This document shows positions 13,544 to 38,892 of a DNA stretch of 64,000 nucleotides, in pieces. A program made the position numbers and the translations under genes. The stretch lies in the NCBI GenBank assembly GCA_022729575.1, contig DZAL01000001.1, positions 24,755 through 88,754 of the forward strand, written 5' to 3'. This stretch comes from Thiomargarita sp. Its GTDB lineage: Bacteria; Pseudomonadota; Gammaproteobacteria; Beggiatoales; Beggiatoaceae. The notes under the pieces were generated by a model, which did not search any database, had not been told where the DNA came from, and worked only from the letters and a program-made list of their open reading frames with translations. Numbering within the stretch: the first letter of the stretch is position 1; the number at the start of each line of letters is the position of its first letter.

Positions 13544-14944
13544 TTAAGTATTATTTTTACTCAGTCGTTGCATTTTACTATATAAGGTAGTGCGGTTAAT
13601 ACCTAATAATCGTGCGGCTTGACTTAAATTACCCTGACTGAGTTTTAAAGCTACATTGATATAACTACGCTCCCGCTCTAATAACACTTCGTCTAAGCCA
13701 AAATCGCCTTGTTGCAAGTGTCGGGCGATAGCTTCGTTAGAATCAATTTCGTGCATATTTTCAGTCTCAATGCTGGCTTCCAATTCTGGCTCTAGTTGAA
13801 GTTGAGTGATTAACTGGCCGGGATATTTGGCACCTAGTCGTATTACAATATTTCGTAATTCTCGCACGTTACCAGGAAAACCGTAATTCATCCATGCTTC
13901 TTTGGCTTCGGTATCGAATTGAAATAACGTACCCATGTCCGCATAAAATTCTTGAAAATTCTTTAAGAGCAATAATTTATCTTCACTACGTTCATGTAGA
14001 GGAGGTACTTTGATAGTCAACACACTGAGACGGTGATATAAGTCGGTACGAAATTGTCCACTGCGGACTTCCTCGCGCAATTCACGATTGGTAGAAGCGA
14101 TGATTCGCGCCGAGGAGTTGCGTACTTTGGTTTCTCCTAAGCGATAATATTCGCCATTTTCTAGCACTCGTAATAATTTGGCCTGCAATGGTAATGGCAA
14201 CTCGCCAATTTCATCCAAAATGAGAGTGCCTTGATTCGCTTCTTCAAAAAAACCAGAGCGTGCGGTATTAGCACCCGTAAAAGCTCCTTTGGCATGTCCA
14301 AATAACTGAGCTTCCAACAATTCTATAGTAAATGCCGCGCAGTTAAGGGTAAGACATGGCAGATTGGCACGTTGGCTTTGAATATGTAAGCATTGAGCGA
14401 CTAATTCTTTGCCGGTACCTGACTCACCTTGAATGAGCACGGAAAATGGTGAGTTGGCAAATTGTTGGATTTGTGCTCGCAACGTTTCCATCGCCGGACT
14501 TTTGCCAATCAAACCACATTCTTTCTGCTTCACTTGAGGTTTATGTTGCTCGGCTTCAAAAATCATTAGCTGATGTTTGAGACGAGTTTTGAGTAATCCT
14601 ATATCACATGGTTTAGGAATAAAATCCACCGCGCCCAAGGTTAACGCATGTCGGACATTTTCCTGAGTATCTTGACCTGAGAGAATCAGGATTTTGATGG
14701 CAGGATTAAAAGTCAGTAACTCCGACACTAACATAAACCCTTCGGCCGGGCTATGCGGGCTTGGTGGTAAACCTAAGTCGATGAGGGCCAAATTGGGTAA
14801 TATCGGTAACGTATAAAGCAAGCGTTTAGCTTCCTCACGAGTAGCTACCACATGCACCAAAAAACTATCTTTTAATACAAAAGCTAATGATTCACTAATC
14901 AAAGGATCATCATCAACCAACAATAAGCTGGGTAGATCAGCCAT
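13544..14944 (-). CDS. NtrC-family sigma-54 response regulator
   Basis: A receiver domain (1-125) has Asp11-13 and phospho-acceptor Asp56 in ALIDLGLPP. The AAA+ domain has Walker A GESGTGKE (173-180) and the sigma-54 contact loop GAFTGA (220-225), followed by LILDEIGELPL. A Fis-type HTH closes the protein (NLSQAARLLGINRTTLYSKM). The receiver resembles that of the PEP-CTERM-associated regulators (SLAF-LKD, PHSPAEGF, GAVDFIPKP). It would activate RpoN promoters when phosphorylated by a kinase not adjacent here. Such promoters are seen in the small RNA array at 37.2-37.9 kb; a link is possible but unproven. Confidence 0.92.
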   Translation of the reverse strand: MADLPSLLLVDDDPLISESLAFVLKDSFLVHVVATREEAKRLLYTLPILPNLALIDLGLPPSPHSPAEGFMLVSELLTFNPAIKILILSGQDTQENVRHALTLGAVDFIPKPCDIGLLKTRLKHQLMIFEAEQHKPQVKQKECGLIGKSPAMETLRAQIQQFANSPFSVLIQGESGTGKELVAQCLHIQSQRANLPCLTLNCAAFTIELLEAQLFGHAKGAFTGANTARSGFFEEANQGTLILDEIGELPLPLQAKLLRVLENGEYYRLGETKVRNSSARIIASTNRELREEVRSGQFRTDLYHRLSVLTIKVPPLHERSEDKLLLLKNFQEFYADMGTLFQFDTEAKEAWMNYGFPGNVRELRNIVIRLGAKYPGQLITQLQLEPELEASIETENMHEIDSNEAIARHLQQGDFGLDEVLLERERSYINVALKLSQGNLSQAARLLGINRTTLYSKMQRLSKNNT

Positions 14945-36262: not shown

Positions 36263-36342
36263 GGATTACCCAAATCTTAAAGATTTGACAAAACTTTATC
36301 TTTGAGTATAATGGGTTGGTCTATTTACTAAAAGAGTTGTTT

Positions 36343-37137
36343 ATGCTGAAACCATTTATAATTATCAATACGATTGTTTTGCTTTTAATGAGTTGTGTCA
36401 TGTCACCATCAGGGCGGTCACAATTGATGTTAATGCCAGATTCACAGTTAGATGAGATGGGGATACAAGCGTTTGATAATCTCAAACAAGAGACTGCTAT
36501 CGAGAAGGATTCACGATTGAATAATTATGTCAGTTGTATTACGAAACCCATTATTCAAGTGAGTGGGAGTCCAATTAAAAATTGGGAAGTCGTGGTATTT
36601 CGTGACCAAGCGGCTAATGCCTTTGCGTTGCCCGGTGGTAAAGTGGGGGTATATACGGGGATGTTGGAGGTGGCAAAAAATCAACATCAATTGGCGACGG
36701 TGATTGGGCATGAAATTGCTCATGTTACTTCTCATCATGGAAATGAGCGAGTATCTCAAGAATTTGCGATTCAACAGGGAATGGCACTGATTCAAGCCAT
36801 CGGTAATCCGCAAACGCAGAATGGTCAACTGTTGATGGGGTTATTAGGGGTAGGGCTACAAGTAGGTGTTTTGTTACCTTATAGCCGGGTACAAGAAAGT
36901 GAAGCGGATTTAGTGGGTTTGAAATTGATAGCCGAAGCGGGATTTGACCCTAGAGAGAGTGTTTCTTTGTGGCAAAATATGAGTAATGTCAGTGGTAAAG
37001 GAGAAACGATCGAATTTTTATCTACTCATCCTTCTAACACGACGCGAATTCGGGATTTAAGTAATACGATGGGGTCTGCATTGACCGTGCAACGGCAGGC
37101 TCAAGCCACCGGTAAAAGACCGCAATGTAATTACTAA
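36343..37137 (+). CDS. M48-family metalloprotease lipoprotein (LoiP/YggG-like)
   Basis: A short signal peptide ends in the lipobox LLMSC (Cys18). The M48 zinc motif HEIAH is at 123-127, preceded by ANAFALPGGKVGVYTG and followed by ESEADLVGL, which carries the third zinc ligand. STHPSNTTRI matches the family C-terminal motif. At 264 residues it is the length of the short periplasmic members such as LoiP, which degrade damaged outer-membrane proteins. I preferred ATG 36343 over 36316 because it gives a clean lipoprotein signal. The gene converges on the small RNA array. Confidence 0.9.
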   Translation: MLKPFIIINTIVLLLMSCVMSPSGRSQLMLMPDSQLDEMGIQAFDNLKQETAIEKDSRLNNYVSCITKPIIQVSGSPIKNWEVVVFRDQAANAFALPGGKVGVYTGMLEVAKNQHQLATVIGHEIAHVTSHHGNERVSQEFAIQQGMALIQAIGNPQTQNGQLLMGLLGVGLQVGVLLPYSRVQESEADLVGLKLIAEAGFDPRESVSLWQNMSNVSGKGETIEFLSTHPSNTTRIRDLSNTMGSALTVQRQAQATGKRPQCNY

Positions 37138-37180
37138 GAAATATTCTATTTGACGGTGACCAGGTTTTGTCTAAGCAAAC

Positions 37181-37261
37181 AAAAAAAGAAGCCTTTCTCT
37201 GGCAAATTGTTCAAAACTAGAGAAAGGCTTTTTAACCAACCACATTTTAAGGAGAATGTAC
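37181..37261 (-). ncRNA. Predicted sigma-54-dependent small RNA, array unit 1
   Basis: The predicted transcript starts at a G 12 nt after the -12 element and begins GUACAUUCUCCUUAAAA. It ends in an intrinsic terminator: a perfect 10-bp stem GCCTTTCTCT/AGAGAAAGGC (37191-37200 and 37219-37228 on the plus strand), with a T-rich tract (TTCTTTTTTT) on the minus strand. The 5' UCUCCUUA is complementary to a strong Shine-Dalgarno. About 80 nt, no ORF. Confidence 0.7.
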
Positions 37262-37272
37262 TATAGTATTAT

Positions 37273-37287
37273 ACAAAATACGTACCA
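37273..37287 (-). promoter_or_regulatory. Sigma-54-type promoter of unit 1
   Basis: TGGTACGTATTTTGT: GG and GT separated by 10 nt, close to the consensus TGGCAC-N5-TTGC. Confidence 0.65.
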
Positions 37288-37465
37288 CTTTTTATTAATG
37301 CGCTGGATTTCGTTTTATTATGAAAAATAAAAGAAAAATGTTTCAATGGAAAAATAAAAATTTAATTTTGGCTAGATTTTCGTTGTCGTTTGAATGACAG
37401 AAATGTAGTATTGGTGACAATCGGTGGTAGTCGATTTAGGGAATTTAGAATTAGAAACTCAGACT

Positions 37466-37540
37466 AAAAAAAAGCCTTTCTCTTAAGAAAATACCTCAAA
37501 AGAGAAAGGCTATCCAACCACACATTAAGGAGAAATGCAC
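37466..37540 (-). ncRNA. Predicted sigma-54-dependent small RNA, array unit 2
   Basis: Predicted 5' end GUGCAUUUCUCCUUAAUGUG; the run UGUGGUUGG is shared with unit 1. The terminator stem is GCCTTTCTCTT/AAGAGAAAGGC (37474-37484 and 37500-37510), and eight T follow on the minus strand (A-run 37466-37473). About 75 nt. This unit has the best promoter match and best stem of the four. Confidence 0.75.
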
Positions 37541-37550
37541 TTAGTATCTT

Positions 37551-37565
37551 GCATTTTCGATGCCA
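37551..37565 (-). promoter_or_regulatory. Sigma-54-type promoter of unit 2
   Basis: TGGCATCGAAAATGC: canonical GG-N10-GC spacing. Confidence 0.75.
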
Positions 37566-37606
37566 ACTTTTTATGGTAGTGTTGACGCTTCGAAGATGGA
37601 TATAAC

Positions 37607-37672
37607 AAAAAAAATGCCTTTCACTTTATCAATGATAAGGTGAAAGGCTAAAAATAACTAAGGGAGGAATGC
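37607..37672 (-). ncRNA. Predicted sigma-54-dependent small RNA, array unit 3
   Basis: Predicted 5' end GCAUUCCUCCCUUAGUU. The terminator is a 15-bp stem with one mismatch (GCCTTTCACTTTATC against GATAAGGTGAAAGGC, 37616-37630 and 37634-37648), followed by eight T on the minus strand. About 66 nt. The stem sequence differs from units 1 and 2 by compensating changes (CTC/GAG to CAC/GTG), which supports selection for structure. Confidence 0.7.
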
Positions 37673-37683
37673 CAAGAATTTGG

Positions 37684-37698
37684 ACAAAACACATACCA
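37684..37698 (-). promoter_or_regulatory. Sigma-54-type promoter of unit 3
   Basis: TGGTATGTGTTTTGT: GG-N10-GT, very similar to unit 1. Confidence 0.6.
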
Positions 37699-37824
37699 TA
37701 ATTCTCATATTATTAAGTATGGCAGAATTTTTCCCTAGTGCTGAATATTTAAGACTTAGCGGTAGCTTTTGTAAGATGAACGTTGAAAACCGTTGAAAAC
37801 TTGAAAACTGCTTAAAAACAGACG

Positions 37825-37880
37825 AAAAAAAACCCCTCTACTGAGTAGTAGAGAGGTAAAGCATACATAAGGAGGAATAC
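37825..37880 (-). ncRNA. Predicted sigma-54-dependent small RNA, array unit 4
   Basis: Predicted 5' end GUAUUCCUCCUUAUGUAUG with a full CCUCCUUA anti-Shine-Dalgarno. The terminator stem is ACC/GGT plus CTCTACT/AGTAGAG around a GAGT loop (37832-37857), followed by eight T on the minus strand. About 56 nt. Its stem is unrelated in sequence to units 1-3 although the 5' end is conserved. Confidence 0.7.
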
Positions 37881-37890
37881 TTAGTATTAT

Positions 37891-37905
37891 GCAGATTGTA
37901 TGCCA
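37891..37905 (-). promoter_or_regulatory. Sigma-54-type promoter of unit 4
   Basis: TGGCATACAATCTGC: canonical GG-N10-GC spacing. The AT-rich DNA upstream (37906-37990) could bind an activator. Confidence 0.75.
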
Positions 37906-38013
37906 GTTATTCAATGCTTTATTTTATATAGATATATGGATATAATGTTTTACACTTCTTCAGGATTTATACCGCAACTTTGATAATTATTTACATGACC
38001 CCCGGCCATCCCT

Positions 38014-38147
38014 CACTGCCATTAAGTTAAGCTAAAGTTACGGCGTTGGAGTCAAAATCTTCAGCTTTGGCAACGCCGTCTTACCTTAGCCAATCTCGTC
38101 CAAATCTGAAGGTTTGGACTCCAACGCGGCTTAACTTAATGGCAGTG
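38014..38147. mobile_element. Family E element 1 with a family A core
   Basis: Perfect 18-bp terminal inverted repeats CACTGCCATTAAGTTAAG (38014-38031) and CTTAACTTAATGGCAGTG (38130-38147) enclose a family A inverted repeat (GCGTTGGAGTC ... GACTCCAACGC). CGGCCATC lies outside both ends. Confidence 0.85.
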
Positions 38148-38158
38148 CGGCCATCCCT

Positions 38159-38259
38159 CACTGCCATTAAGTTAAGGAATCCCGCGGTCAGGTTTTAACC
38201 TTGAAGGTCTGGTTTTAGACCTTCAAGGTTTCTTTCGCAGGCTTAACTTAATGGCATTG
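38159..38259. mobile_element. Family E element 2 with a different core
   Basis: The same 18-bp ends as element 1 (38159-38176; 38242-38259 with one change) enclose a different core, a CCTTGAAGGTCTGG/AGACCTTCAAGG hairpin. It lies 11 bp after element 1. Confidence 0.85.
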
Positions 38260-38289
38260 CGGCCATCACTTACTAAGTGAGTTTCTATT

Positions 38290-38892
38290 ATGCAAGCAGC
38301 TGAAGTTCATCAACGAGATACCTATGCGTCTCGTTGGAATTTACCAGAATCATTAGCATCTGGTCACATTGATTTAGCCAAATTAAGTACGATTCAAAGA
38401 ATTTTGTTAATCACTGATGGCACCTTGACTAAAATTTTAGAAGCCTACCTGCATGAAAGACTGCATGTAGTTAAATTATCAGAACATAAGATGCCCGCGG
38501 CCTACGATATTCTTCCGTTATCTCTCAAAATTGGCCGAGAAGTCATTGAACGGAAAATTTTTTTACAAGGCCTCACCACTCAAAATTATTGGTTGTATGC
38601 CGAATCGATAATTGTACCAGACCGACTGGACGAAAAGTTTAGAGAACAGTTACTCCATTCACAACAGCCTATTGGGCGATTATGGATTGAACATAAAATG
38701 GAAACATACAAAGAAATCATTTCGTTAACTAGAGAAATCGCCGGTGATTTGGCCGAGTATTTTAATTTGAAACGGGAAGATCAACTCTTATGTCGAACTT
38801 ATCGAGTTTTTTCCAATCGTAAGCCCATTATGATGATTACGGAAAAATTTCCAGAAAATTACTTTAAGTTGGCTATTTACCCGATACCATGA
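38290..38892 (+). CDS. Chorismate pyruvate-lyase-like protein (DUF98)
   Basis: This 200-residue cytosolic protein has the DUF98/UbiC-like pattern: a long N-terminal helix, IGRLWIEHKMETYKEI with the conserved E-H, then CRTYRVFSNRKPIMMITEKF P. Relatives release pyruvate from chorismate to make 4-hydroxybenzoate for ubiquinone, but many DUF98 members have unknown substrates. Neighbours (repeats on both sides) give no pathway hint. I name the fold, not the reaction. Confidence 0.7.
   Translation: MQAAEVHQRDTYASRWNLPESLASGHIDLAKLSTIQRILLITDGTLTKILEAYLHERLHVVKLSEHKMPAAYDILPLSLKIGREVIERKIFLQGLTTQNYWLYAESIIVPDRLDEKFREQLLHSQQPIGRLWIEHKMETYKEIISLTREIAGDLAEYFNLKREDQLLCRTYRVFSNRKPIMMITEKFPENYFKLAIYPIP

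Follow-up and report, generated by a model that had tools for sequence, protein, structure and literature searches.

A tandem array of four putative small RNA genes, each preceded by its own predicted sigma-54 promoter and each carrying a copy of the anti-Shine-Dalgarno (anti-SD) tail of 16S rRNA near the 5′ end, lies on the minus strand between positions 37905 and 37179 of the window (the whole stretch of DNA analysed, 64 kb in length). A preliminary description had placed at this site tandem sigma-54 small RNA genes belonging to no family it could recognise, a reading that the sequence comparisons presented here support through a conserved promoter, a covarying terminator, and the lack of an Rfam match. 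The present analysis supports the gene plan, promoter conservation, terminator, anti-SD motif, taxonomic range, and synteny. In Rfam, no family reached its cut-off at gathering or permissive thresholds, and a literature search of incomplete coverage retrieved no report of these RNAs in large sulfur-oxidising bacteria. The RNA family thus appears undescribed.

All four successive units follow one plan: TGG-N10-GC or GT, 10–13 nt, a C/U-rich segment, a stem, and then about eight T residues. They divide into types A and B and are listed below, in the direction of transcription, together with the adjacent protein-coding gene. Unit E-values, which are rough, derive from R3, the final model built from 46 sequences and applied at a cut-off of E <= 0.002.

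37824–37905, minus strand: u4, type B, the leading unit (R3 E 9.9e-9); promoter TGGCATACAATCTGC at 37905–37891, predicted start at ~37879, anti-SD CCTCCTTA at 37875–37868, terminator ACCTCTCTACT/AGTAGAGGGGT followed by T8.
37608–37698, minus strand: u3, type B (R3 E 3.8e-7); promoter TGGTATGTGTTTTGT at 37698–37684, predicted start at ~37672, anti-SD CCTCCCTTA at 37667–37659, terminator GCCTTTCAC/GTGAAAGGC followed by T8.
37466–37565, minus strand: u2, type A (R3 E 5.6e-10); promoter TGGCATCGAAAATGC at 37565–37551, predicted start at ~37539, anti-SD TCTCCTTAA at 37533–37525, linker TGTGGTTGG, terminator AGCCTTTCTCTT/AAGAGAAAGGCT followed by T8.
37179–37287, minus strand: u1, type A, last unit (R3 E 1.3e-7); promoter TGGTACGTATTTTGT at 37287–37273, predicted start at ~37261, anti-SD TCTCCTTAA at 37255–37247, linker TGTGGTTGG, terminator AGCCTTTCTCT/AGAGAAAGGCT followed by a T run.
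36316–37137, plus strand: M48 metallopeptidase, BepA/LoiP-like lipoprotein (Pfam PF01435, E 5e-41; NCBIfam below cut-off).

The presence of four same-plan units was confirmed with a strict full-plan pattern (TGGYA-N7-TGY, 8–26 nt, YCTCC, 15–85 nt, T6) that matches the window exactly four times, at u1–u4, whereas 200 shuffles averaged 0.02 matches and never gave more than one. The promoter pattern by itself is weakly informative, with 10 matches in the window versus 3.8 expected. The four promoters of the preliminary description were recovered at their minus-strand places. The interval from 37137 to 38290 contains no open reading frame of at least 60 amino acids. All four RNAs fold better than shuffled sequences (z -2.9 to -4.9). 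Several copies of a palindromic repeat (CTTAACTTAATGGCAGTG/CACTGCCATTAAGTTAAG), inverted relative to one another, lie just upstream of the array at 38011–38262. The 13-mer CCATTAAGTTAAG occurs five times in the window versus zero expected, and a similar string is found upstream of a homologous unit in G024.

Given the established 12-nt spacing between the GC element and the start site used by sigma-54 polymerase, each RNA would begin right at the C/U-rich segment. A conserved 5′ segment had been remarked on at the outset; it is now recognised as an anti-Shine-Dalgarno sequence because the 16S rRNA 3′ end, read in three genomes of the family, is GGATCACCTCCTTT. CUCCUU/CCUCCUU near the 5′ end is the sole invariant element of the RNA, with the CUCC core retained in 46 of 46 members. 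In type A the core reads (U)CUCCUUA followed by UGUGUGGUUGG or close variants, and in type B it takes the form UUCCUCCUU.

Two hairpins of differing strength accompany this motif. The terminator stem is certain from sequence covariation: its seven pairs are 99.1% paired, five of the seven show changes on both sides, and the covariation score was reached by none of 500 shuffles. The stem of u4 was originally thought to differ from those of the other three units, a distinction that did not survive the family-wide alignment, in which one helix with compensatory changes accommodates them all. The core can fall in the loop of a small 5′ stem (ACAU/AUGU, GUACAU/AUGUAC, or ACAUAUU/AAUAUGU). This hairpin is weak, mostly of 3–7 pairs with 64% of cells paired, and its covariation is no better than in a control in which the two halves are exchanged among genomes. 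Since the stem is short and the swap control does equally well, display of the anti-SD core in a hairpin loop is graded as plausible from the predicted fold.

The recurrence of AUGUGUGGUUGG in type A units raises the question of whether these encode a tiny peptide beginning AUG UGU GGU UGG. Such a product is extremely unlikely and was rejected because neither the frame nor the stops are kept: translation gives MCG and a stop in G48a, MCGWSLSSFS and a stop in G20, and in G18b a frame that stays open as far as the terminator. Moreover, u1 has a different frame, type B lacks AUGUGUGGUUGG, and the preceding sequence is an anti-SD rather than a Shine-Dalgarno (SD) sequence.

Homologues were retrieved with searches of increasing reach. 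DNA similarity, reliable for the sister species only, identified three homologues in the sole other genome of the genus, two of which possess cleaner promoters (TGGCATAGTAATTGC and TGGCATACTAATTGC); the weak matches L002, L010, and L013 were read and judged to be chance. R1, a model built from four sequences with the promoter included, yielded clear members in other genera of the family, often in tandem. Given that inclusion of the promoter biases R1 matches, R2 was built from the RNA part only. As with R3, E-values from both models are rough. The final model gave 53 matches in 23 of 43 family genomes and 13 of 25 genera (G006:C93 being counted uninspected). The preliminary description would have been refuted by a lack of conservation of GG-N10-GC plus terminator in relatives; both proved to be conserved across 13 genera.

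The family appears confined to this lineage in the genomes surveyed. No convincing match was found among 271 other genomes of the class, and in a draw of 274 class genomes the carriers were family members only. Two matches, L155 (G095:C9) and L156 (G232:C11), lack the motif, correspond to gene-internal or terminator-like hairpins, and were set aside as chance. The weak matches to R1, R2, or R3 that were read (L071, L073–L077, L080–L085, those in G007 and G010, and, outside the family, these two in G095 and G232) are without the anti-SD or without the promoter. A scan with one type A motif placed 11 of 13 matches within sulfur bacteria, namely Thioploca, Candidatus Parabeggiatoa, Candidatus Halobeggiatoa, Thiotrichales HSG1, and unnamed Thiotrichaceae, while matches in Streptomyces and Oscillospiraceae look like chance.

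Promoters compared across the family give the consensus TGGYA-N6-TTGC. Among the first 34 members, TGG is found in 32–33 and the G of the -12 element in 31, with the C mostly kept and the flanking positions variable; in four members (G11b, G6, G42c, and G3d) the promoter is absent or degenerate. A -24/-12 promoter of the kind that identifies sigma-54-dependent small RNAs is therefore conserved upstream. Independent evidence was sought in 20 R2 matches outside R2's own sequences, some of which are orthologues of modelled sequences, whereas G15, G19, G40, G4e, G43e, G18d, and G61a are, as judged by eye, not close copies. TGGYA-N7-TGY occurs within 55 nt upstream in 16 of these 20 loci, versus a mean of 0.2 and a maximum of 2 for shuffled upstream sequence. 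Two further loci display AGGCATAGAATTTGC and TGACACATATATTGT, respectively, and the remaining two (G007 and G010) look like false matches.

These counts also bear on the idea that the RNAs arise from vegetative sigma-70 promoters, GG-N10-GC being incidental. In u1 and u4, TATAAT- or CATAAT-like strings do lie 3′ of the -12 element, and a promoter scan gives a sigma-70-like site at u4. The scan, however, returns sigma-70 sites no more often than in shuffles, and the first 34 members conserve TGGYA-N6-TTGC but not the TATAAT-like string. Together with the recurrence of the sigma-54 pattern at independent loci, this makes sigma-70 control very improbable.

Sigma-54 itself (rpoN, PF04552) is encoded in 41 of 43 family genomes, among them the present one, and in 31 of the 31 good ones. 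The present genome has seven strong matches to the enhancer-binding-protein domain PF00158, one of which is a sigma-54 enhancer-binding response regulator at window positions 13544–14944 on the minus strand. Its closest NCBIfam models are NtrC and the PEP-CTERM response regulator, both below cut-off, and it is a possible candidate for the activator of the array. An enhancer motif search upstream of members produced no clear motif, with only a mild enrichment of TGACA before any correction for multiple testing.

The RNA or array is convergent with the M48 lipoprotein gene in the window, in the sister species, and in two genomes each of g4, g18, and g2, so that this neighbour is kept in four genera at a distance of ~5–260 bp (the M48 family search was run on the window copy, the others being assigned from sequence similarity). 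The neighbour of the array in Thioploca-type genomes (g3) is a DedA-like gene instead. Head-to-tail arrays in the window, G003, G042, G004, G043, G018, and G048 have, by eye, type B first and type A last. Recurrence of this order and of the M48 neighbour across genera suggests that the locus is old and has been inherited vertically, rather than being a recent repeat.

Location 3′ of the M48 gene, along with T residues on the opposite strand of the u1 terminator, could suggest that the units do no more than terminate or attenuate transcription, one after another, between convergent genes. That account is hard to credit, as every terminator has both a promoter and a 5′ motif ahead of it that are conserved, and many members reside elsewhere, for instance, in relatives, beside genes resembling those for DedA or PEP carboxylase.

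The explanation we favour, with moderate confidence, is that these are sigma-54-induced small RNAs that pair with SD sequences and thereby occlude the ribosome-binding sites of mRNAs. Transcription, the activating signal, SD base-pairing, and the purpose of the copies are what we infer beyond the sequence features. According to this proposal, trans-acting RNAs of ~55–80 nt, with one sigma-54 promoter each, would be transcribed when some enhancer-binding protein is active and would each end at their own intrinsic terminator. The 5′ end would display CUCCUU/CCUCCUU, the 16S tail sequence, unpaired in the loop of the small hairpin, from which the core could pair with the SD of target mRNAs and block ribosome binding. 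Several copies per genome would afford a higher dose and varied flanking sequence, and translation of many mRNAs would probably be switched off together. The little target specificity of a bare anti-SD core counts against this explanation. A more speculative extension, which we put forward tentatively, is a family-specific, sigma-54-triggered general translation damper, in which one signal would release a burst of 16S-tail mimics competing for strong SDs transcriptome-wide. Hfq, a possible partner, is encoded in 38 of 43 family genomes, the present one included. A second, more divergent Hfq copy (77–87 bits) was observed in G010, G044, G015, and G019.

Alternatively, titration of a protein or of a different RNA could be the main action of real sigma-54 small RNAs, the C/U-rich motif then being a binding site and not a seed. 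Sponge activity is frequent among multi-copy RNAs in which a short single-stranded motif is repeated, and the RpoN-linked multi-copy RNAs CrcZ and CrcY, which titrate Hfq/Crc, offer a precedent. Each short RNA here, however, possesses a single motif and not many, the 16S tail sequence is preserved exactly in that motif, and the loop lacks the GGA motif for CsrA, so we regard titration as rather unlikely. SD pairing and the mRNA targets in the preferred occlusion reading are drawn by analogy from RF02278/S17S and NfeR1. RF02278 double-hairpin RNAs bear reverse complements of ribosome-binding sites (PMC5688073), through which Bordetella S17S represses one target directly (PMC11722255), and alpha-r14 NfeR1 blocks translation initiation via CCUCCUCCC (PMC10746234).

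By plan, RF02278 (B. cenocepacia ncS03/05/27/62 and Bordetella S17S) is the nearest known kind as judged from sequence. Shared features are a short RNA with two predicted hairpins, a CU-rich anti-RBS segment that may fall in a loop, multiple copies, GGUU(U)GG ahead of the terminator stem, and relatives in the same family of sulfur bacteria. These 'toxic' RNAs are thought to be betaproteobacterial. RF02278-like RNAs were nevertheless observed in this gammaproteobacterial family (L028–L046, 30–43 bits, below the 50-bit cut-off), including L029 in the array's own genome (C28:20917–20975) and tandem copies in G019, G015, G024, and G010.

Descent of the new RNAs from divergent RF02278 members that gained sigma-54 promoters, an ancestry compatible with SD occlusion, is possible though doubtful. 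The common plan (anti-SD, plausibly in the first loop, GGUU(U)GG linker, terminator hairpin), the presence of RF02278-like RNAs in the same genomes, and end-to-end alignment of the model with u4 (16.3 bits) and with the homologous G004 sigma-54 unit (20 bits) speak for it. Yet these best scores are far under the 50-bit gathering score, the RF02278 model gave no match at E <= 1 on 10 relatives' loci, and none of 15 RF02278-like loci is matched significantly by R2. The anti-RBS core and terminator hairpin of the RF02278 architecture are present, whereas the first hairpin is weak and lacks covariation support. The second CU-rich 5′ site (CUCCUCC before the hairpin), present in nearly all RF02278-like loci, is absent from the members read, save for a CTCCTCC run in G24. 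Furthermore, a sigma-54 promoter lies beside the RNA in 0 of 22 RF02278-like loci, the single pattern match being 107 nt upstream. The low scores, the blindness of R2 to RF02278-like loci, the missing second site, and the different promoter are why the new RNAs were kept out of RF02278, from which they also differ in an AU-rich first stem and tandem arrays. For comparison, S17L has a sigma-A promoter and is processed to S17S (PMC11722255).

The parallel with CcsR-type anti-SD RNAs, drawn in the preliminary description, is apt as an analogy, while the closer architecture of RF02278 had been missed. CcsR1–4 (cuckoo) of Rhodobacter and other alphaproteobacteria likewise comprise four successive small RNAs, homologous to one another and controlled by an alternative sigma factor, with an anti-SD type motif. 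They form one RpoHI/RpoHII transcript with ccaF1 that is cut by RNase E (PMC10253847), whereas each new unit has its own promoter and terminator, is predicted to use sigma-54, and is not interleaved with a protein gene; the CcsR arrangement of a co-transcribed DUF1127 gene and a single precursor is not seen, with no such gene recognised by eye among the flanking genes. In alpha-r14 (NfeR1, rhizobia), an anti-SD motif in hairpin loops similarly represses mRNAs at translation initiation. NfeR1 carries three CCUCCUCCC motifs per RNA and a promoter without a sigma-54 signature (PMC10746234), as opposed to the two hairpins and one CUCCUU/CCUCCUU found here in place of three motif-bearing hairpins.

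The array thus adds a family unlisted in Rfam to the lineage of large sulfur-oxidising bacteria. Among small RNAs present in several copies, Qrr1–5, GlmY/GlmZ, and CrcZ/CrcY also have sigma-54 promoters, but they differ in sequence and targets, are not arrays of short same-plan units, and are not known to carry an anti-SD core. The combination of a sigma-54 promoter per unit, tandem arrays, and 16S-tail mimicry is new, and anti-SD small RNAs of different make (RF02278, alpha-r14, CcsR) recur in proteobacterial lineages. Clean individual sigma-54 promoters would provide a way to ask how anti-SD RNAs act on a defined signal and where their specificity comes from, with the RF02278-like RNAs of the same genomes, which have no sigma-54 promoters, as a natural comparison.
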